Assembly: GCF_003664005.1 (NCBI RefSeq)
Contig: NZ_RCCJ01000001.1
Span: forward strand, 558,001 to 622,000
Length of the DNA: 64,000 bases
Direction of reading: 5' to 3'
DNA from: Hydrogenivirga caldilitoris
Lineage (GTDB): Bacteria > Aquificota > Aquificia > Aquificales > Aquificaceae
Shown: positions 47,265 to 62,159 of the stretch, one piece after another
Position numbering within the stretch: position 1 is the first letter of the stretch
Layout of the letters: the number at the start of each line of letters is the position of its first letter
Notes under the pieces: generated by a model
Seen by the model: the letters and a program-made list of their open reading frames with translations, nothing else
Told to the model about the DNA's origin: nothing
Databases searched by the model: none
Translations under genes and position numbers: made by a program

Positions 47265-48857
47265 TTATCTTACAAGCTTGAGAAACTCCTCCCTCGTTTT
47301 CATATCCTTAAGAAACACACCCCTGAGGGCGGAGGTGACTGTCTGGTGTCCGGGAGACATCGCACCCCTCATAGACATGCAGTTTCCCGATATGGCGGTT
47401 CTTCCTTCCCTTCTCACTAAGATGAATCCTGAAGGCACGGTTACAGAGTAAATATAGCCTTCGTAAGGTTCTTTCAAAGATTCCCTCACTTTAGAATAAA
47501 ACTTATACCTGCCTTGTTTATCACCTCTTGTTTCCAGTCTGTAATAAACTTGGTCATTTGTATAGCTTTCATAAACCGTAGTACTTATACCTATGGTAAC
47601 TAATAGAGCTTGTATATCATCCATGAGTTTTTTAGACTTGCTTACAAGGTGCAATTTACCGTTGGGTTTTATATAACCATCTCCTAAGGAATAGTATTGT
47701 AAGAATAGAAGTTTTTGATCTGGTGAAAGGTTAAAGATTTCCTTTGGTAATCTTTTATCTTTTGACTTACCTAACGGTGACAGGAAATTGCACAGAGCTT
47801 TTGAATTTATGAAAAATTCAACAACACCGTTCGTTCTCCTGTGCTTAAATACCTTAAAGGGCATCTCTCTTAGCACGCTTTCCATCAATTCTGCTTTATA
47901 TCCCTCTTTCTGGACTATCCTGACCTTGTGCATCCTATAATTTGGATTTTCATATACACAACCTTCTGCAAGGTACATACCAAGGAATTTTAAAAATGTA
48001 TTAGCATTTACTTTTAAAGCTCGGGTCTTTAAAGCTGTGTTTCCGTAGTAGCTCACGCTATCTTCACTTTCTATTTCAAAATATTCCTTCTCTTTACCTT
48101 TCATAATGCCAGCCTGAGGTACTATAATAGTCCGACCTAACAGCTTGTCTGCTCTTTCGGTGAGCCATACATTTTCTCTTCTGGATTTAGAGAATATCCA
48201 GTCTGTTGAAAATAACATTTTGTGGTCAGGGGATACCAGCAGATTTAAAGATTTGTTCCTGAAGTTTATCATGTAGCCCTTATACGGATATCTATGGTAC
48301 ATAACAGGCTCTGTAAACTCTATTTCCAGTGTATCCGGATACACCTGAGCAACTTTCTCGGTACCGTTGAGCTCTTTAAATAGCTTCCATCCTTGATCCG
48401 TTAAGATTTCTGTATCTTCTGAATAGCAAAGATGTTCCGCCGACATGACCACAGCCACCCCTTTAGGTTTCAGTTCACCCTCCAGGAAGTCGGCTATCTC
48501 CTCCGTGAGCCTCTCCTGAACCTGAGGGCGTAGGGCGAAGGCTCTGACTGTTCTCACGAGTTTGGAAAGTCCGCAGATGACCCCGTCAGGTATGTAGGCT
48601 ATGTGAACTTTTCCAAAGAAGGGAAGGAGGTGATGCTCACACAGGGAGTAAAAGGTTATATCCTTGACCAGTACCATCTCATTATACTCGCCGAACTCTT
48701 CAAAGAGCTTCATGTCAAAGGAACGCATGCTTTCAAATTCTTCCCACATACGGGCTATCCTATCGGGAGTTTCCCTTAAACCTTCCCTGTCGGGGTCTTC
48801 CCCTATTCCCTCAAGGAAAAGTCTGATAGCCTGTTTTATCTTCTCCTTGTCTACCAT
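47265..48857 (-). CDS. folE: GTP cyclohydrolase I interrupted by an intein
   Basis: 530 codons. The joined extein is 181 residues: 1-143 plus 493-530. FolE opens GTP to dihydroneopterin triphosphate for folate. Seen: [31 protein letters not shown] with zinc ligands C73 and H76, [28 protein letters not shown], then SAEHL, the intein, and [23 protein letters not shown]. The intein sits directly before C493, the third zinc ligand (Cys181 in the E. coli enzyme), so the enzyme cannot be active until spliced. A TetR-type gene ends 43 bases upstream, and secG begins 45 bases downstream. Confidence 0.96.
47382..48428 (-). other. Intein with LAGLIDADG homing endonuclease motifs, in folE
   Basis: 349 residues (FolE residues 144-492). 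Block A: C1 in CYSEDTEIL. Block B: NLLVSPDH with H69 of the intein (a serine where threonine is usual). Dodecapeptides: [11 protein letters not shown] and [12 protein letters not shown], so an endonuclease domain is present. Blocks F and [18 protein letters not shown] then AISGN, followed by extein cysteine. The terminal asparagine is kept, but the penultimate residue is glycine instead of histidine. Three 60-base stretches counted by eye inside are 28-35% G+C, against 57% in the adjoining extein line, which fits recent arrival. Confidence 0.95.
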
Positions 48858-50145: not shown

Positions 50146-51291
50146 CTAAGCTTTCAGAAACTTGTAAGATAACCGTAAAGAGGGTAACAGGAATAGCATG
50201 ATACCCAAGGCATAGGTGATAGAGAAGAATATTTGAACGATACCCTTAAGGAATAAACTGCCAACCATACCAAACAGGGAGAAGGATATTAAAAGGAGGC
50301 TAATCTCCAGAAACTTTTCGGGGAAAAGCTCCTTCAGTGTGGGCACCTTTTCCTTTCCAAGCTTTGGAGCGAACCCCTTCCACCAGAGCATGAAGGGAAT
50401 TATGTGATAGCTTGCGCCGAGAGTAAGAATCGGAAAGAAGCCGTAAAGCAGGACGTCAGAGTGTAGTTTTAGAATTGAAAAGTCCTGACTTCCCGCAGAA
50501 AGGACACCAACGACAAGAGCCGTTGTAAGCATTATTAGACTAAGAAGGAAGGCTCTTATTGATGGGTCAAGACCCTTGAGCGGACTCTCTCTCCTTGAAA
50601 GGGTTTTGTAAAGGATAAAGAGATGGAATAAAAGAGTAGCCAGGATGAGAAGTCCGGAGATGTATATGTGCTGGAAGGAAAACCTCTTCCAACTTATAAG
50701 GAAGTCTATGGTGAAGAAGGTATGAAAGGAAAGGTGAAGCCAGATGTTATTGGAGAAGTAGAGTCTTTCCAGCTGGAGCATGGGGAGTAGCAGGTATATA
50801 CCTCCGAAGGAGACGGTGAGTAGAAAACCCACCGCAAGGGTATGTTTAACCAGGAATTGGTTTGTTTCACCTACCAGAATAAAGTAAGAAGCCAGCAGAT
50901 AGAAGACAGACCCTACCAGAAAGAAAAGCTGAACTTGCCCGCTGTATCTCCGTGTATTGAAGAGAATGTACACCATGTAAATCAAGGAGGATAAAAAGTA
51001 GGGCACTCCAAAGCTGAGTTCAAGAATATACAGGCAGAAGGAGGATAGAAATAGGAGAAGGTGAAGGTAAGTGAGGGCTTGAAGCTTAGAAGGTATCCCC
51101 TGGAGAACAGGGTACAGCTGGAATAAGACTCCAACAACCACAGAAGGAACGCTGAAGTAGAGCACGGTAGCCGTGTAATCCCCCCAGCCTATACCCCTCT
51201 GGGTCAAGGACAGGAGCAGGAAAAGTAAACCGAGAATTATATACAAGGGTGTAAGTTTCACAAAGGTAGTTTTTTCTGTAACTTCTATCAT
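50146..51291 (-). CDS. Polytopic membrane protein, heme-copper-oxidase-subunit-I/NnrS-like
   Basis: 381 residues with about 11-12 hydrophobic segments and no signal peptide. Histidines recur inside membrane segments, for example LKHSDV-type KLHSDVLLYGFFPILTLGASYHIIPFMLWW (given here by its ends), KHTLAVGFLL and WLHLSFHTFF. This spacing recalls stand-alone proteins related to CcoN or NnrS that may bind heme or copper. The identification is tentative. It is the last gene of the kor-containing run, with a 4-base overlap to the globin gene, so a role with oxygen or nitric oxide is inferred. Confidence 0.55.
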   Translation of the reverse strand: MIEVTEKTTFVKLTPLYIILGLLFLLLSLTQRGIGWGDYTATVLYFSVPSVVVGVLFQLYPVLQGIPSKLQALTYLHLLLFLSSFCLYILELSFGVPYFLSSLIYMVYILFNTRRYSGQVQLFFLVGSVFYLLASYFILVGETNQFLVKHTLAVGFLLTVSFGGIYLLLPMLQLERLYFSNNIWLHLSFHTFFTIDFLISWKRFSFQHIYISGLLILATLLFHLFILYKTLSRRESPLKGLDPSIRAFLLSLIMLTTALVVGVLSAGSQDFSILKLHSDVLLYGFFPILTLGASYHIIPFMLWWKGFAPKLGKEKVPTLKELFPEKFLEISLLLISFSLFGMVGSLFLKGIVQIFFSITYALGIMLFLLPSLRLSYKFLKA

Positions 51292-52187
51292 CTCCTGCCC
51301 TCAACTTTGTATATGAGCCAAAAAACCACACCGAGGGCAAGGGTGGTTATAGATAGGGTTATAAGCTCCTGGAACTTCTCCGGAGATAGGGATATTATCA
51401 AAACCTTTCTTATCAGAGCAGCTAAGGCTACCCCTACGAAGACCTTTATGCTTATGGCACCTCCCCTTATATGCTTGATTTCTTCTGACAGCAGCTCCGA
51501 TATAGCGTAAAGGATGAGGACAGAACCTAATATCCCCAGCCCACCCCTTTCCAGGGGGAGCTCTCCTGTAGCAACCAGAAAGAACTCATACCCTATCCAG
51601 AGAATTAGGAAGAGCCCGACTCCTGAGAGCGCAGTGATTATGAATATGTCAAAGAACCAGGATACGCGTCTTATGTTCTCAATAAGCACCCTCTGTAGCT
51701 TTCCTGAAGAGAGGTAAACTTTCAGCTCCTCCTCCCTGAAGGAGTTCACCATAACATCAAGGTTAAGGTCTAAAGCCTTGTTTATGGAGGCAATTATCTC
51801 GTCTCTTTCAGGAGAACACCCCATATGCTCGGTCAGTTTTTCCGCTATGAAATCCCTAACAAAGTTCATGGAGGCTTGGACGTAGTGGGGAGGGAGCCCT
51901 ATCCTGAGGTGTACCTCTCCTATTCTGTATAGCCTTCTAAGGTATTGGGCGTCGTATTTAGAAAGAAAAAGCTCTGCGAACCACCTCTTAACTTTATCTT
52001 TGTGTCTCTTCCTGGTTTCCTCATCTGGTAAGTAAAGGCTTGTATCCCTGAAGTTCTCAAGGTAGTTGTAAAAACGCTCTATGAACTCGTCAGCGTAGCT
52101 CTCACCAAGCCAGGCTACCTTTCTCAGATTTTCCTCGTCTTTTTTACTCCACCGGTAATGGACTTTCAGTTCCTCTATCGTTTCCAT
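51288..52187 (-). CDS. Protoglobin domain fused to a PsiE-like membrane domain
   Basis: 299 residues. Residues 1-165 are a globin-coupled-sensor type globin: RKVAWLGESYADEFIERFY and the diagnostic RIGEVHLRIGLPPHYV with proximal H93, then FVRDFIAEKL. Residues 170-299 carry four membrane segments (about 176-207, 217-235, 245-268, 274-293) with IKHIRGGAISIKVFVGVALAALIRKVLIISL split across the loop, matching PsiE-family proteins. Globin sensors are usually joined to methyl-accepting or cyclase domains; a membrane PsiE output is unusual. I infer sensing of oxygen, NO or CO at the inner membrane. The output is unknown. Confidence 0.82.
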   Translation of the reverse strand: METIEELKVHYRWSKKDEENLRKVAWLGESYADEFIERFYNYLENFRDTSLYLPDEETRKRHKDKVKRWFAELFLSKYDAQYLRRLYRIGEVHLRIGLPPHYVQASMNFVRDFIAEKLTEHMGCSPERDEIIASINKALDLNLDVMVNSFREEELKVYLSSGKLQRVLIENIRRVSWFFDIFIITALSGVGLFLILWIGYEFFLVATGELPLERGGLGILGSVLILYAISELLSEEIKHIRGGAISIKVFVGVALAALIRKVLIISLSPEKFQELITLSITTLALGVVFWLIYKVEGRR

Positions 52188-52642
52188 TCTTCAAGCTCCC
52201 TCAGTCTTTCAAGGAGTTTACCAAACTTATCATCAGACATCCTCTTTATTTTCTTCGCCTGACCAAGCGTGACCGTATAAGGGAGTATCCTCCTAAGCAG
52301 TGGATTTTTAAGGGGAGTGAATCCAAACTCTATGAGTACGTTCAGGGCTTCCGGATACTTCTCTAACAGCTTTCCGACGTTTGTGTTTTCGTCTATTCTG
52401 AACTCTTCCTCCTCTTTTGAGACCCTCTCCTCTCCGGACCTCCATATCCTTAATAGATATCCTTCCTCCGTTTCCTTAAGCTCGTAAGAGTATCCGAGCT
52501 CCTCAAGCCTTGGGAGGAGGTGTGTGAATGGCCTTGAGCCAAGGACCTCAAGGGTTTCTCCCTCTTTAAGCTCCTCAAGAGCCTTTGCCACCTTTACCAT
52601 AGGCTGGGGAGGCTCTAAATTCCTAACATCAATAAAGGGCAT
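52175..52642 (-). CDS. DUF2249 and DUF1858 two-domain protein
   Basis: 155 residues. Residues 1-70 resemble DUF2249, a TusA-like fold: FIDVRNLEPPQPMVKVAKALEELKEGETLEVLGSRPF is its signature region at residues 3-39. Residues 85-150 resemble DUF1858/ScdA-N: NVGKLLEKYPEALNVLIEFGF then LGQAKKIKRMSDDKFGKLL. Both domains often accompany hemerythrin-like and denitrification or iron-sulfur repair genes. No cysteine is present, so persulfide chemistry as in TusA is excluded. It overlaps its neighbours by 13-14 bases. Confidence 0.75.
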   Translation of the reverse strand: MPFIDVRNLEPPQPMVKVAKALEELKEGETLEVLGSRPFTHLLPRLEELGYSYELKETEEGYLLRIWRSGEERVSKEEEEFRIDENTNVGKLLEKYPEALNVLIEFGFTPLKNPLLRRILPYTVTLGQAKKIKRMSDDKFGKLLERLRELEEWKR

Positions 52643-52865
52643 CTTCCAGCTCCACCTCTATACTTTTAAATCCTAGCCCTCTCAGCTTCTCTCTGACCGC
52701 ATTCACGAGATAGTCCGTTATGGGACAGAAAGGGCTTGTGGGTCTCAGGGATACATAAACCCACTCCCCTTCAGTCTGGATGTGCTGGACCACACCCATA
52801 TCCACCAGGTTCATGCCAGTGTGTGGGTCTATCACCTCCCTGAGGGCTTCTCTTACCTCTTCCAT
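52629..52865 (-). CDS. MIP18-family (DUF59) protein
   Basis: 78 residues. Seen: VREALREVIDPHTGMNLVDMGVVQHIQ as the DUF59 opening, and the SPFCPITDYLVNAVREKL stretch with the conserved cysteine. These small proteins (SufT, PaaD and relatives) help iron-sulfur cluster assembly or delivery. Directly after korB, with a one-base overlap, it may help mature the clusters of the oxidoreductase. Confidence 0.85.
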   Translation of the reverse strand: MEEVREALREVIDPHTGMNLVDMGVVQHIQTEGEWVYVSLRPTSPFCPITDYLVNAVREKLRGLGFKSIEVELEDALY

Positions 52866-53833
52866 TATATTGCCTCCGGCTTGCAGGCGTTTATAAAGCT
52901 TTGAAGTAGCTCCAGAGTCGGTTCTTTCACTGCCTTATACCGCTCCTTAACCCTGCTGACTCTGTCCTCGTAAGTCTCCTCCTCCTTTCTGTAAAACACA
53001 CCTATTGGAACCGGAGCGTTGGGATTGTAGTAGTGGTCAAGGTCATGTAGAGCCAGCTCAAGGGCGGTTTTAAAGTCGGAGGGGTCGTGTCCTTCCTCGT
53101 TTATGTTCTTCTCCTTGACAAGAGGATATTCAAGGAATGGAAGCTCTGAGTTCACATCCTTTACCTTCTCCCTGTAATACTTGAACGTATCAACTTTGTT
53201 GAAAGTAGGACACGGGGAGAGGACGTTCACAAAGGCAAATCCCCTGTGAGATATAGCTTCTTTGAAGACCTCTGTCATGTGCTTCGGATTTCCTGAGAAG
53301 GTTTGAGCTACGAAGGTGGCTCCAAAGGACAGCATTTGGGCTACAGGATTTATAGGTCTGTCTATGTTCCCGTAAGGTGTGAGGGAGCCGTAAAGTCCCT
53401 CCCTTGATGTGGGAGACACCTGATTTTTTGTAAGCCCGTAAACCTGGTTGTCCATACAGATTACGGTTATATCAATGTTTCTCCTGGCCGCATGAGGGTT
53501 GTGCCCCGCGCCTATTGAGAAGAGGTCTCCGTCTCCCACATTGCATATGACGGTCAACTCGGGATTCGCGAGTTTCACCCCTATGGCAAAGGGTATGGCT
53601 CTCCCATGAAGGGTATGAGTGGCGTAAGTCCTCATAAAGAGAGGTGCCCTTGAGGAGCATCCTATTCCGGAGACCTGGACTATACTTTCCGGAGGTATCC
53701 TCAATTCTGAGAAGACCTTGGTGAGAGAGGATATAACGGTAAAGTCCCCACAACCTGCACACCAGGTAGGCTCTATGTCGCTCTTGTAATCTACCGGTTT
53801 TAGTTGAGCTTCAAGTCTCCTATAAACACCCAT
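52865..53833 (-). CDS. korB: 2-oxoglutarate:ferredoxin oxidoreductase, beta subunit
   Basis: 322 residues. Binds thiamine diphosphate and a [4Fe-4S] cluster and, with KorA, carboxylates succinyl-CoA to 2-oxoglutarate in the reductive TCA cycle. Seen: PTWCAGCGDF with C25 and C28, C59 in SGIGCSSRAPLF, the diphosphate motif GDGDLFSIGAGH, VICMDNQVYGLTKNQVSPTS, and a later LSPCPTFNK. A pyruvate or other 2-oxoacid substrate is possible. A tail of about 50 residues follows the core. Confidence 0.92.
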   Translation of the reverse strand: MGVYRRLEAQLKPVDYKSDIEPTWCAGCGDFTVISSLTKVFSELRIPPESIVQVSGIGCSSRAPLFMRTYATHTLHGRAIPFAIGVKLANPELTVICNVGDGDLFSIGAGHNPHAARRNIDITVICMDNQVYGLTKNQVSPTSREGLYGSLTPYGNIDRPINPVAQMLSFGATFVAQTFSGNPKHMTEVFKEAISHRGFAFVNVLSPCPTFNKVDTFKYYREKVKDVNSELPFLEYPLVKEKNINEEGHDPSDFKTALELALHDLDHYYNPNAPVPIGVFYRKEEETYEDRVSRVKERYKAVKEPTLELLQSFINACKPEAI

Positions 53834-53846
53834 ACTGTACCTCCTA

Positions 53847-55673
53847 TTAAATTAGTCCGTAAACTCTTTCTTCCCCGAATATGTCCGCCGCCGTGAACCT
53901 TCCTTCCCTGACCTCTGGGTTCTCTATCAGGAACTCCAGGAATGCTTCCACCTCCTTGGGAATCAGAGGCTCACCCCTGTAGATATTGAAAGTTATTGGC
54001 CTCAAATGGGTTTCCTGCTTGAGTATGGAGGCAAGCTGTCCGCTCCAGTTGGTTTCGGGTACAGCTATCCTTCCGCAGCTCCTTGCAAAAGATTCAATGA
54101 GGTCAGCTCTCACAGGCCACAGGAGTTTCATGTAAAGGGCGTTTATCCTTGCCCCCCTGCTCCTGAGCCTTTCAACTGCCTCCTTTGCCACCGACGCAGT
54201 GAGTCCCCATGTGATAATTCCTATGTCAGCCTGCTCATAGGGGCAGTCAAACTCATAAAACCTCTCTGCATCTTCCTTAAGGAGCTTCTCAAGTTTTCTC
54301 ATTCTCTTTTCCATCTGCAGGGTTCTTATGTCCGGTCTGTTCCTTGGGTCTGAGTTTTCCTGATGTTCAAGGCCGGTTATGGCGTGGATGGCATTCGGGT
54401 CTCCGGGGATTCCTACCGGCGTTATACCATCTTCGGTGAACAGAGCGTACCTCAGGAACCTGTCGTTCCTTATGAACCTGCCTTCTGGGTCATCCTCCCT
54501 TCTGTAAACCCACCTGTTTATGACCTTTATGTTCTCCACCTTTGGTGTTGGGAAAGCCTCCGTCCTCAAGGATAGGGAGGCATCAGAGAGCAGGAATACT
54601 GGCATCTGATACTTCTCAGCAAGGTTGAAAGCTTCCACGGTCAGGTAGAAACACTCCTCAACGTTTGTCGGGGCAAGAACTGCTTTCGGATACTCTCCGT
54701 GTCCACCGTAAACCGCATGGTAAAGGTCTCCCTGCTCGTGCTTTGTGGGCATACCCGTGGCTGGACCAACCCTCTGAACATCCACTACAACTATTGGGAG
54801 CTCTGTCATGCCTGCATAGGAGAGGAACTCTGTCATGAGACACAGTCCAGGTCCTGAGGTTGCTGTCATAGCTTTCACACCTGCAAAAGAAGCTCCGAGA
54901 GCCATACCCAGCGAAGCTATCTCATCCTCAGCCTGGTAGAGCCATCCTCCTGCCTTTATAAGGTCTTCAACTATGTAGTTCCCAACGGTGGTTGCAGGAG
55001 TTATAGGATAGGCTGCGTAGAATTTACAGCCTGCAACAACGGCACCCTTTGCAACAGCCTGGTTTCCTTCCATTATCACCACGTCTTTGGGTTCCAGAGG
55101 AGGAGGGAATATGTAGGGGTCTGTTTTCTTGAGATTCTCTCTGACGTAGTTTATACCTGTTTCAAGGGCTCTGTAGTTCATAGCTACTATCTCCTCACCC
55201 TTTCTCAGGAACTTTGCCCTTATTGAATCCTTTATGGACTGGTCAGGTATCTTAAAGAGTTCGCAAAGCACACCGAGGGCAATAACGTTCTTAGTTATGT
55301 ATGCCTTCATCACATCCCTGGCAAGCTCGGAGAGAGGAACCGGGTAGAGGTAAACTCCTTCGTGCTCTTCAGGCTCAAAGTCTGAGGAATCATAAATAAG
55401 GACGCAACCCTCTTTAAGGTGTTTCCTGTTGAACTCGTAAGCCTCCCTGTTAAAGCAACACAGAATATCAAAACCATCTCCCGTTGAATATCTCTTGATG
55501 TCTGATATCCTCACGATTGACTGGGCGTACCCCCCCTTTATCTCCGCCGGGAAGCTCTTAAAGTTCACCACCTCATACCCAGCCCTAGCGGCAGCTTCTG
55601 TAAGGAAGTCCCCCGCTGATATAACACCTTCACCACCTTCACCACCTACTTTGATTACAAGGTCAAAACCCAT
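53847..55673 (-). CDS. korA: 2-oxoglutarate:ferredoxin oxidoreductase, fused gamma-alpha subunit
   Basis: 608 residues. N-terminal gamma domain (about 1-185): KVGGEGGEGVISAGDFL, FKSFPAEIKGGYAQ. C-terminal alpha domain (about 195-608): VIMEGNQAVAKGAVVAGCKFYAAYPITPATT, DEIASLGMALGASFAGVKAMTATSGPGLCLM, and MPTKHEQGDL. The substrate pocket YPITP fits the family. This two-subunit Kor form, without separate delta or epsilon genes, is the type described in Hydrogenobacter next to the five-subunit For. 13 bases separate it from korB. Confidence 0.93.
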   Translation of the reverse strand: MGFDLVIKVGGEGGEGVISAGDFLTEAAARAGYEVVNFKSFPAEIKGGYAQSIVRISDIKRYSTGDGFDILCCFNREAYEFNRKHLKEGCVLIYDSSDFEPEEHEGVYLYPVPLSELARDVMKAYITKNVIALGVLCELFKIPDQSIKDSIRAKFLRKGEEIVAMNYRALETGINYVRENLKKTDPYIFPPPLEPKDVVIMEGNQAVAKGAVVAGCKFYAAYPITPATTVGNYIVEDLIKAGGWLYQAEDEIASLGMALGASFAGVKAMTATSGPGLCLMTEFLSYAGMTELPIVVVDVQRVGPATGMPTKHEQGDLYHAVYGGHGEYPKAVLAPTNVEECFYLTVEAFNLAEKYQMPVFLLSDASLSLRTEAFPTPKVENIKVINRWVYRREDDPEGRFIRNDRFLRYALFTEDGITPVGIPGDPNAIHAITGLEHQENSDPRNRPDIRTLQMEKRMRKLEKLLKEDAERFYEFDCPYEQADIGIITWGLTASVAKEAVERLRSRGARINALYMKLLWPVRADLIESFARSCGRIAVPETNWSGQLASILKQETHLRPITFNIYRGEPLIPKEVEAFLEFLIENPEVREGRFTAADIFGEERVYGLI

Positions 55674-55702
55674 TTTCAGACCTCCTATTCATAAATATAG
55701 GC

Positions 55703-56077
55703 TCAACCCTCACCACCTAAATAGGGTTCATGTCCAAGCATCTCGGGGAAGTAGATGTTCTCCTCCTCCATGAAATGGCTTTTAAGGACGGCTATAGCCC
55801 TCTTTGCATTGTTCTCGTTAGGAGATTCCTTTAGCTCCTCAAGGGCTTCCCTTACCTGTTCATGGGCAAACTCAAGAACATAAAAGTCAAACCTCCCCTC
55901 CGCAAGTTCCCTGAGTTCACTCTCTTCCTTAAGGGCGTGCCTTTCAACCTCATGCTCCATAAGCTGGATTAGCTTCTCCAGATTATCCTCAAGGTTCTCC
56001 TCAACTTTTTTTAGCTCTCTGAGGATACTCCTGTGCTCCTCAACTAACTCCTCTATAAGAGCTCTCAACCTCTCCAC
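55703..56077 (-). CDS. Hemerythrin-like (HHE) protein
   Basis: 124 residues. A four-helix protein with EEHRSIL, MEHEVERHALKEE, EFAHEQVREAL and LKSHFMEEENIYFPEML, where histidines and glutamates are spaced as in hemerythrin di-iron sites. The C-terminus LGHEPYLGGEG is unstructured. It lies 29 bases before korA. Binding of oxygen or NO, or iron storage for cluster repair, is the plausible role. Confidence 0.87.
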   Translation of the reverse strand: MERLRALIEELVEEHRSILRELKKVEENLEDNLEKLIQLMEHEVERHALKEESELRELAEGRFDFYVLEFAHEQVREALEELKESPNENNAKRAIAVLKSHFMEEENIYFPEMLGHEPYLGGEG

Positions 56078-56080
56078 TTC

Positions 56081-56470
56081 TCACCTCCCGTCTCTGAAAA
56101 TACGGTGGCACGCTGTGCATCCCTGGAGAACCCGAAAGTACTCCTTAAAGGCTTCTTCTCTCTTACCTTCCTTCATGAGCTCAATTATCCTCTGTGAACC
56201 TCCGTGCACCTGTTCCTCAAAGCCTCTTACAAGCTTGACAAACTCCTCTCTCTTTGAGGGTTCTATGTACCTCAGAGGTCCCCCTGCGGGTTTTGGATGT
56301 TCCGCTATCTCTCTCGCACCCTCTATTACCATCCTGTCGTTGTTCAGGAGGAATCCCTCAAGAACTTTCACCGCCGACTGATTTACCAACTGCATAACCT
56401 GTTTCATGGTGAGGTTCTCCTGGGCGAAGAGGCTTATTGAGCTCAGCAACATAACTAAGAGAAATCTCAT
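56081..56470 (-). CDS. Cytochrome c'-like periplasmic protein
   Basis: 129 residues. Seen: signal peptide RFLLVMLLSSISLFAQ, a helical body (MKQVMQLVNQSAVKVLEGFLL, FVKLVRGFEEQV), and a single C-terminal heme motif C118-T-A-C121-H122, as in cytochrome c' and relatives, which have four helices and the heme at the end. Such proteins bind NO. The start overlaps the cupin gene stop by 4 bases and only 3 bases separate it from the hemerythrin gene. Confidence 0.8.
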   Translation of the reverse strand: MRFLLVMLLSSISLFAQENLTMKQVMQLVNQSAVKVLEGFLLNNDRMVIEGAREIAEHPKPAGGPLRYIEPSKREEFVKLVRGFEEQVHGGSQRIIELMKEGKREEAFKEYFRVLQGCTACHRIFRDGR

Positions 56471-56961
56471 CTACCACCTCCCAGCTTTTCAATCCGGATT
56501 ATCCAGCGATCTCCATTGCCTTCCACATACTCCCATCCCACCTTTCCTGGAAAGAACATATTCATCTGGAAGTAGAGAGGGAGCGGGTCATGGTCGTTCA
56601 CAATTTCAAACGCCTCCCCCTCTTTAAGTTCTTTGAACTTTTCCATAACGAGAGGGTGTCTTCTTGCAGGCTCCATTTCTCTGAGTTCTATCCTTTCTAA
56701 GGGTTTTTCCTTTTCTGTCTTTGTGGATATCTCCAGCAAGGTTGCGCTGCCCTCAGGGATAAATCCGAAGATCTCACCTGGCTCAACAGATATCAAGGCT
56801 TCCCCTTCAATATCTCTGAAAGACTGTCCCTTTATAAGCTTTCCCCTTCCAGATAAGAGGACAAAAACCCTTTCAGAGCCAGTTGCGGAAGGGTAAATTT
56901 TACCCTTTAACTTTCTGACCTCAAGTTTGCCCGCTTTTATCTCCTGTACTATATCAACCAT
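56467..56961 (-). CDS. Cupin-like protein with C-terminal DUF2249 domain
   Basis: 164 residues from the ATG at 56961; an ATG at 56976 lies over the binding site GGAGG. Residues 1-95 are a cupin-like beta barrel (KIYPSATGSERVFVLLSGRGKLI, ALISVEPGEIFGFIPEGSATLLEI). Residues about 98-160 are DUF2249: EPARRHPLVMEKFKELKEGEAFEIVNDHDPLPLYFQM is the signature region at 105-141. The usual cupin metal histidines are not evident. It is the first gene of the kor run and the second DUF2249 protein in it. Confidence 0.78.
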   Translation of the reverse strand: MVDIVQEIKAGKLEVRKLKGKIYPSATGSERVFVLLSGRGKLIKGQSFRDIEGEALISVEPGEIFGFIPEGSATLLEISTKTEKEKPLERIELREMEPARRHPLVMEKFKELKEGEAFEIVNDHDPLPLYFQMNMFFPGKVGWEYVEGNGDRWIIRIEKLGGGR

Positions 56962-57008
56962 GATACCTACCTCCATAAGTAAATGTTTGTTTATCAGGCT
57001 CCTTTTCC

Positions 57009-59786: not shown

Positions 59787-62159
59787 ATGAGGCTGTTCTT
59801 AATCGTTCTTACCCTGATGGGTCTTTCCTTTTCTGCTCCTCCTTTTATACCGCCCGGATGGCACAACCCCCAAAATCCTCATTACGGTGGTCAGGGACAA
59901 GTTGCGGCAACAGAGTTCACTAGTTTGAGTAATCCACCATTTACTCTTATTGTTTTTACTGGTCCGGTAAACTGGGCTACAGCAGCAGCGGCATGCAGAT
60001 CAAAAGGTTTAGAAATAGCCTCTATACATAACCTTGAAGAGAATATGAAGGTGCTTGCCTTACTCAAAAGTGTGTCCTGGCAACCGGGTGTGTGGAAGGG
60101 AGCATGGATAGGTCTGACCGACGATGGATCTGAAGGCAGGTGGAGATGGGCAGATGGTTCTCCCGTTGACTTTCTAAACTTTGGACCTGGAGAACCTAAC
60201 GGTGGAACTTATGAAAACTATGGAGCTATTGAGCTTGCGAGAGCGGGAAGACCGGACGGATGGTGGAACGATGCCAATGTAAACGAGAAGTACGGAGCTG
60301 TGGTTTGTAGAGGAGGTGCTGTTGCTTCGGTTTCTGAGTTACCTTCCTTATCTTCAACTACAAGTGGATTTCAAGGTGGGGATAAAGTTCTACTTTTAGT
60401 GGATAGCACAACCTGTCCTGCTGGGGATGTGGTAAAAGACCTTAGCATAATCAAGGGAAGCTATGAGTGTGTTGATTTTCAAGGGAAACGCTGGATAAAG
60501 CCTTTTGATGCAGGTTTAAATCTTTACAAACCACTAAACATATCTGGAGACTTTTCTCTTGAATTTGAGTTCTATACCTTCGAACCCGGATGCCCTTTTG
60601 TAGCGGTTAACCTTTTCCCCGAGAGGACCTTGAAGGAAGCTCAGGAAGGTAATCAATATGCTCTTGGGGGAGATACCTTCATAGTTTTGAAGGGGAGCTG
60701 TGACAGGTTTGAAGCAGGTGTCTCCTCCAGCCCCCGTGGCAGCAGGGATGCTTTTTACGAATACAAGAGGAACATACAGAAAGGAGCCATACATTCCGTT
60801 GCCTTAGCCGTCAGGAATGGGAAGGCTATTATATACCTGGATGGTAACAAGATAGCATCGGAACCCTTTACACCGACCGAGCCAATAAGAGGTATAGGCT
60901 TTTACTTCTACAAACACTATGAAACGGACAAGCCTTACGGTGATTTTCCTGCACTCATAGGCAACGTAAAGCTCGCTCTCTATACTGGAGCCCCTCAGCA
61001 ACCCGCCCAGATGCAGCCTCCTCCTCTATCACCTCCTCAACCGCAGGTCTCCTTACCTAAACCTCAGCCACCGCCTCCTCCGGCTCCGATACAGCCCTTT
61101 AAGAAACAGGTTAAGTGTATAGAATCCGTGGGAGTGGGTGAGGCGTCGGTGATAGGTGGTGATAGGGCGAGTGCCAAGGCTGAAGCTCTTGCGAGGGCAA
61201 AGTGGGACGCTATAGAGAAGGCTCTCGGTGTAACGACGAGCGTGAAGACCATAGTCCAGAACTTCCAACTACTGGACGAGGTGATAAAGAACCAGGTAGG
61301 GGGATTCATAAAGGATGTCAAAGTGCTTCAGGAAGAGAACTTTGCCGATATGGTAAGGGTTAAGGTGAGGGGCTGTGTCTATCCCGAAGAGGCTGAAAGA
61401 GCCTTAAGCTTGATATCAAGCGATACCGCGTTCAGTGTGATGGTTATAGTAAAGAACCCAAGCGGTGTAGAGCTTGATGAGATGAATCCGGTCACCACGG
61501 AGCTGGTTAATATTCTCAACCAGCAGGGCTTCAAGGTCTACGATTTTGCGGGGAACCCCAATGTGAACCCCTACGATGTGGAGCAGATAGTGGCACAGAA
61601 GAGATTCATACTTCTGAGGGCTTATATGTCAAGAGCTCTCTCTGGGGCTATGGTTGTCGGCAAGGTAGAGCTGGTTCCTTCAACCCAGACCGGTCAGGAT
61701 ATAGGTTACGGAATAAGGGCGACCTTCAACGTTGTCACGGCAAGGCTCAACTACTACCTCCTTGCCAGGGACGCAGACGGGCTGAGGATAGTGGCTTCGG
61801 GCTCTCTGTCGGCTATGGGAAGAGCACCCAACCTTCAAGATGCCAATTACAAGGCTATGGAGGCTCTCGCCCAGAAGCTTGGAAGCGACATAATGGGAAA
61901 GATAGAGCGCTACAGGGCATCTAAGAAGAAGGTCGTCACGGTCGTTGTGAAGGGCGTAAAGAGTACCAGCCAGAACTTTGAGATAAAGGAGAAACTCCAG
62001 AGAGTTCCATGGGTTGAGTCCGTTGAAGACCTCGGACTCGGTAAGTTTAAGGTTACGTACCTTGAAAACACGGTTTATCTTGCCAACGCGATAGAGAGGA
62101 TGCCCGAGCTTAAGCTTATAAGATTCTCACCTACTGAGGTGGAGGCGAGCTCACTATGA
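59787..62159 (+). CDS. Exported C-type lectin, LamG-like and LPP20/FlgT-like multidomain protein
   Basis: 790 residues. Signal peptide RLFLIVLTLMGLSFSA. Residues about 48-176 form a C-type lectin domain: C70, WIGL (107-110), RWRWADG, EPN (136-138), WND (160-162) and C174. EPN plus WND is the calcium site pattern of mannose-type lectins. Residues about 225-400 look like a concanavalin/LamG domain (HSVALAVRNGKAIIYLDG). A proline-rich linker spans 403-437. Residues 440-535 match LPP20/FlgT-N (VGVGEASVIGGDRASAKAEALARAKWDAIEKALGV region). The rest is periplasmic alpha/beta sequence. I infer a surface or periplasmic carbohydrate-binding protein tied to the CsgG-like lipoprotein. Confidence 0.8.
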   Translation: MRLFLIVLTLMGLSFSAPPFIPPGWHNPQNPHYGGQGQVAATEFTSLSNPPFTLIVFTGPVNWATAAAACRSKGLEIASIHNLEENMKVLALLKSVSWQPGVWKGAWIGLTDDGSEGRWRWADGSPVDFLNFGPGEPNGGTYENYGAIELARAGRPDGWWNDANVNEKYGAVVCRGGAVASVSELPSLSSTTSGFQGGDKVLLLVDSTTCPAGDVVKDLSIIKGSYECVDFQGKRWIKPFDAGLNLYKPLNISGDFSLEFEFYTFEPGCPFVAVNLFPERTLKEAQEGNQYALGGDTFIVLKGSCDRFEAGVSSSPRGSRDAFYEYKRNIQKGAIHSVALAVRNGKAIIYLDGNKIASEPFTPTEPIRGIGFYFYKHYETDKPYGDFPALIGNVKLALYTGAPQQPAQMQPPPLSPPQPQVSLPKPQPPPPPAPIQPFKKQVKCIESVGVGEASVIGGDRASAKAEALARAKWDAIEKALGVTTSVKTIVQNFQLLDEVIKNQVGGFIKDVKVLQEENFADMVRVKVRGCVYPEEAERALSLISSDTAFSVMVIVKNPSGVELDEMNPVTTELVNILNQQGFKVYDFAGNPNVNPYDVEQIVAQKRFILLRAYMSRALSGAMVVGKVELVPSTQTGQDIGYGIRATFNVVTARLNYYLLARDADGLRIVASGSLSAMGRAPNLQDANYKAMEALAQKLGSDIMGKIERYRASKKKVVTVVVKGVKSTSQNFEIKEKLQRVPWVESVEDLGLGKFKVTYLENTVYLANAIERMPELKLIRFSPTEVEASSL

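Follow-up and report, generated by a model that had tools for sequence, protein, structure and literature searches.

A protoglobin joined to a four-helix PsiE membrane domain: a candidate membrane-bound globin-coupled sensor in Hydrogenivirga caldilitoris and other prokaryotes

Globin-coupled sensors such as HemAT, AfGcHK, DosC/BpeGReg and the RsbR-type and HD-GYP proteins carry an N-terminal sensor globin and soluble outputs (MCP, kinase, GGDEF, STAS and HD-GYP). Full-length GsGCS of Geobacter sulfurreducens is described as having a transmembrane domain C-terminal to its globin, so that the combination of a globin with a membrane part may be partly known. In E. coli, PsiE has for decades been a phosphate-starvation gene without a function. 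Here we analyze a gene from a 64,000-nucleotide stretch of the genome of the heat-loving bacterium Hydrogenivirga caldilitoris (the window, to which all unprefixed coordinates refer), which encodes a globin homologous to those of the sensors named above. Whereas their outputs are soluble, the putative output of the fusion protein belongs to the PsiE family and consists of four membrane helices. The sequence-only reading had placed PsiE outside the usual outputs of globin-coupled sensors (chemotaxis, cyclase, STAS). This is supported by a search of an open library of 5.39 million papers, in which no publication paired a globin or protoglobin with PsiE as a fusion and none on BLUF and PsiE had a bearing on it. 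Relative to this searchable literature, the use of PsiE as the membrane part, its sharing with BLUF sensors and its persistence after loss of the globin appear to be new.

The globin-PsiE gene (51288..52187, minus strand) is complete, with an ATG start, 299 codons for amino acids and 0 internal stops. Pfam searches placed a Protoglobin domain (PF11563) at residues 3-154 (51726..52181, minus strand; 95.6 bits, E = 4e-27, cut-off 25) and a PsiE domain (PF06146) at residues 182-294 (51306..51644, minus strand; 72.2 bits, E = 5.6e-20, curated cut-off 23.9), separated according to AlphaFold2 secondary structure by a linker of residues 155-181 (51645..51725, minus strand). The earlier proposal of a protoglobin bearing the motif RIGEVHLRIGLPPHY, which is present in the protein, and of a four-helix PsiE-like domain joined to it was thus borne out, including by the profile search that could have refuted PsiE. 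Both domains were likewise found in 71 of 71 aligned relatives (alignment A2). Full-length versions of the join, with 31-78% identity, are present in most genera of Aquificota and in other phyla, ruling out chance, a frameshift or an assembly join as its origin. The start of the gene overlaps the upstream reading frame by 13 bp and its stop overlaps the next one by 4 bp (ATGA), an arrangement seen in operons with translational coupling. A promoter search gave no signal above chance.

The nearest solved relative of the globin half is by far the GsGCS globin domain (PDB 2w31). It was found by phmmer with E = 1.2e-29 and scored 160 bits against the family profile, twice the 81 bits of the next best solved structure. 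An AlphaFold2 model built from a 71-row alignment (mean pLDDT 87) had a pTM of 0.52, which leaves the relative placement of the globin and PsiE halves unsure. Its N-terminal half is a globin of the globin-coupled sensor type, with 2w31 as the best Foldseek match (E = 1.2e-7, TM 0.93 by target length). His93 (codon 51909..51911, minus strand) aligns without gaps to H93 of 2w31, is retained in 93 of 99 family members and is the predicted proximal heme ligand, HisF8. Tyr40 of the FY motif (codon 52068..52070, minus strand) is assigned as the distal TyrB10 because it lies 53 residues from the proximal histidine, the spacing found in HemAT. Tyr40, Trp69, Pro99, His101 and Tyr102 are each kept in more than 90% of the members. 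The pocket residues expected of a ligand-binding sensor globin (predicted HisF8 and TyrB10) are therefore conserved, and the globin half would bind heme and a gaseous ligand. Position 66 (E11) is V, I or L in 98 of 99 members (otherwise A or M or F) and never His. GsGCS162 is six-coordinate via HisE11, and with a hydrophobic E11 in every member this form is not expected here, so that the family falls outside the bis-His GsGCS subgroup. The protein otherwise shows the features by which globin-coupled sensors are recognized, namely an N-terminal protoglobin with HisF8 and TyrB10 and a C-terminal domain from another family.

In the model, the globin is followed by helices 163-207, 212-240, 247-265 and 269-298, with which the four hydrophobic stretches in the hydropathy profile coincide. 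The first of these is a single helix that runs from the linker into the first transmembrane segment (TM1). The loop 236-246 and the C-terminus are rich in K and R, and the loops fit the positive-inside rule for a predicted topology with both termini in the cytoplasm (N-in/C-in). Hydropathy, alignment with E. coli PsiE and a model of the PsiE half alone agree on four transmembrane helices with a conserved Glu in TM2 and a conserved Arg in TM3. Glu231 (codon 51495..51497, minus strand) does not vary within the fusion family and is shared by most PsiE proteins, and Arg260 (codon 51408..51410, minus strand) is invariant in PsiE whether fused or stand-alone, that of E. coli included. The E. coli protein matches PF06146 with 80.6 bits. 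Against NF002763, the NCBIfam equivalog of E. coli-type PsiE, the fusion protein scored 15.2 bits (cut-off 138), indicating that it belongs to the same family as E. coli PsiE without being its ortholog. Foldseek found no significant match of the PsiE half among solved structures (best E = 0.78). VIA-align matched it to helical bundles, VTC, Orai and DgkA among them, with a highest Z score of 10.5, which is below the noise level stated by the tool for such bundles, and we make no claim to any of these folds.

Unlike the fusion protein, E. coli PsiE and the other stand-alone members of the family have no sensor domain. The H. caldilitoris genome encodes two such stand-alone PsiE proteins in addition to the fusion. 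One of them (L197:5869-6342, genome positions 1125868-1126341) adjoins phoB-, phoR- and pstS/C/B-type genes, which agrees with the family name. The fused copy, in contrast, is not beside pho/pst genes. We also note a norC-norB pair about 6 kb beyond the stand-alone psiE/pho/pst locus.

Globin-PsiE is a widespread architecture and not a peculiarity of H. caldilitoris. In Aquificota, 98 of 136 genomes contained a match to the fusion protein, mostly as a full-length fusion. The 71 aligned relatives span Aquificota, Nitrospinota/Nitrospirota, Campylobacterota, other MAGs and Hydrothermarchaeota. In the genome collection beyond Aquificota, carriers were found in Nitrospinota/Nitrospirota, Campylobacterota, one Muproteobacteria and one Chromatiales MAG and Hydrothermarchaeota. 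In the phylum of the Nitrospinota group, about 30 of 77 genomes contained the fusion, in Campylobacterota about 14 of 298, and the Pseudomonadota sample added one more (L226). Chemolithoautotrophs belonging to several phyla have thus retained the protein, which they share with archaea. In the tree, the archaeal copies were placed within the Aquificaceae clade (group support 98/96), which points to transfer between domains. The viral contigs searched contained no copy of the fusion, and the plasmids searched gave only matches to other globins. In three Desulfurobacteriaceae genomes, the gene lies between dapA and dapB, and the globin has an insertion of about 35 residues ahead of its last helix (L036, L039, L055).

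Both halves of the protein, where intact, are under purifying selection, with a dN/dS of about 0.04-0.07 where the pairs compared are least saturated. Which half is dispensable could be read from one genus of Aquificaceae (g6), where the gene occupies a single site adjoining an IscA-like gene. It is full length in one genome (L009), and PsiE alone remains, as a protein of 142-147 residues, in six others (L040, L041, L042, L047, L052, L054). In two of these (L040 and L052), a globin remnant lying behind in-frame stops can be followed as far as residue 126, and in a further two (L043 and L044) a decayed globin of about 100 residues persists. There, the globin has diverged roughly threefold more than the PsiE to which it is joined (dN 0.42 vs 0.14). 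In the genes without a globin, PsiE still evolves with a dN/dS of about 0.05-0.1 (dN 0.035 vs dS 0.35; 0.065 vs 1.24), indicating that PsiE works alone and that the globin is an optional part. PsiE-only relatives were also found in the Nitrospinota group (L214, L215).

Partner swaps were found on both halves. Five Campylobacterota proteins (L166-L169, L181) combine a globin of the same subfamily with EAL, a c-di-GMP phosphodiesterase domain (PF00563, E <= 5e-51), and these globins nest inside the clade of PsiE-fused globins with a support of 99/98, in a tree with long outgroup branches. The globin is thus a swappable sensor. In Nitrospinota-group and Pseudomonadota genomes, a BLUF domain is fused to PsiE instead (L211-L213 and L221-L225; for example L211:764-1648, L212:781-1698 and L213:1055-1939), with both domains at E <= 1e-25 in L211-L213, L221, L223 and L224. 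These proteins resemble globin-PsiE in size and in the order of an N-terminal sensor and a C-terminal PsiE. They differ in their input, which is a blue-light flavin domain, and their PsiE halves are closer to one another than to the globin-fused ones. BLUF-PsiE thus identifies PsiE as a swappable output. Taken together, the decay of the globin with PsiE kept, the EAL swap and the BLUF swap suggest that the globin serves as input and PsiE as output, each of them exchangeable, and PsiE has the appearance of an output module in the membrane that accepts interchangeable sensors. The three events amount to natural experiments that separate input from output.

We therefore favor the reading that the fusion protein is a membrane-bound globin-coupled sensor with PsiE as its output, to which we assign a probability of roughly 60%. 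The cytoplasmic N-terminal globin would bind heme via His93 and, distally and close to Tyr40, a diatomic gas; like other globin-coupled sensors, it would probably form a dimer via its G and H helices. Gas binding would move the last globin helix, and through the linker TM1, so that the four-helix PsiE domain would change its state. PsiE itself would be a membrane effector that functions alone and to which globin or BLUF sensors have been attached in order to switch it. A broader version, in which PsiE is a general membrane-embedded signalling output switched directly by a globin (gas) or BLUF domain (light) on the same chain and without a second messenger, making the fusion protein a gas-gated membrane effector of a previously undescribed kind, is tentative, and we consider the odds to be somewhat against it. 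For PsiE, a fused and chemically defined input may provide a handle on function, with O2, NO or, in BLUF-PsiE, blue light as the switch. For the heme-sensor field, it would add an output located in the membrane and independent of kinases, cyclases and chemoreceptors.

The gene neighborhood bears on the ligand. In the window, the fusion gene is preceded by an overlapping gene with DUF2249 and DUF1858 domains (52175..52642, minus strand) and a DUF59/FeS_assembly_P gene (52629..52865, minus strand), and followed by an overlapping gene for a polytopic membrane protein of 381 residues without a Pfam match (TM381; 50146..51291, minus strand). TM381 is homologous to a protein encoded beside nap in Sulfurovum (TM414, L103:3351-4595; BLASTP E = 1e-15). 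Members of this family have about 380-415 residues, are polytopic, lack a Pfam model, are encoded beside DUF2249, DUF59, nap or siroheme-decarboxylase genes, and are possibly NnrS-like or oxidase-like. The region 52175-56976 (minus strand) contains korAB and the DUF59 and DUF2249/DUF1858 genes, along with genes for a hemerythrin, another DUF2249 protein and a small protein that has a CxxCH motif.

This setting could indicate that the protein is NO-specific and is dedicated to nitrate/NO respiration, in one module with DUF59, DUF2249 and TM381/TM414. The four genes lie within 5 kb of each other both in the window and in three Sulfurovum loci (L103, L104, L114), where napA is next; the only two DUF2249 domains of the H. 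caldilitoris genome are no more than 5 kb from the fusion gene; and the genome has norC-norB. Elsewhere, norBDQE (L098), norBDQ (L111), NorB at 3.6 kb (L191), napA (L104, L114), AhbA/B-type siroheme decarboxylase (L103, L106, L114) or NnrS (L099, L105) are encoded near the fusion, and Rrf2 regulators or DUF2249 genes are also among the neighbors in a minority of loci. However, in L196, which is from the same genus, and in L195, the DUF59/DUF2249/TM381 cassette does not include the fusion, which is encoded elsewhere, and this weakens the case for a dedicated cassette. Housekeeping genes surround the fusion in most genomes. Its presence does not track NorB across Aquificota, where many carriers lack NorB, and the Desulfurobacteriaceae carry the fusion without any NorB match. 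A one-to-one link with NO reductase was not seen, and a fixed operon partner is ruled out, since the neighbors vary from genus to genus. We consider membership in such an NO module rather unlikely.

The globin family and Tyr40 would fit O2. An N-oxide or NO marker was present within 5 kb of 22 of 119 fusion loci and of none of the other 97, in a count made without phylogenetic correction, and on the basis of this minority of neighborhoods NO rivals O2. Weighing these loci against the 97 unmarked ones, the cassette without the fusion and the lack of tracking with NorB, we infer that O2 has about an even chance of being the ligand, that NO is somewhat less probable, and that some other ligand is improbable.

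The same neighborhoods could also suit an enzyme rather than a sensor, that is, a membrane-tethered globin which removes NO by dioxygenase or reductase chemistry and for which PsiE is a mere anchor. NO dioxygenase activity is a property of many kinds of globin (PMC3820574), some copies lie beside norBDQE, napA or NnrS, and in the Nitrospinota group truncated-globin genes directly adjoin the fusion, at 26-3242 bp in 13 loci. Two lines of evidence make this reading improbable. The globin belongs to a sensor lineage, lacks a partner domain with reductase function and is found joined to EAL as well, and PsiE is more than an anchor, as it stays under selection after loss of the globin, is fused to BLUF elsewhere and also occurs on its own.

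Some members of the family cannot be conventional heme sensors, because the proximal histidine is lost in 6 of 99 members, one entire family among them. This family of Aquificota (f3; L038, L134, L135) has lost both His93 and His101 and kept the fusion, so that its globin has to function with the usual heme ligand missing. His93 is also lost in L015, and the heme pocket is lost in L043 and L044. A heme-free sensory globin responding to a non-gas signal, as in the N-domains of RsbR and the stressosome, might be suggested by f3 and by a weak match of the protein to Rsbr_N (E = 0.099; E <= 0.001 in 4 of 71 members), but it is an improbable explanation, given that His93 and the FY distal motif are present in most members and that the losses are confined to few lineages and in part represent evident decay.

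Two other features of the window were observed. At 47265-48857 (minus strand), the folate gene for GTP cyclohydrolase I (FolE), which in relatives encodes an uninterrupted protein of 188 residues, is split by an in-frame LAGLIDADG_3 insert, an intein-like element. At 59787-62159 (plus strand), a 790-residue secreted protein with a C-type lectin domain is encoded, which is unusual for Aquificota.
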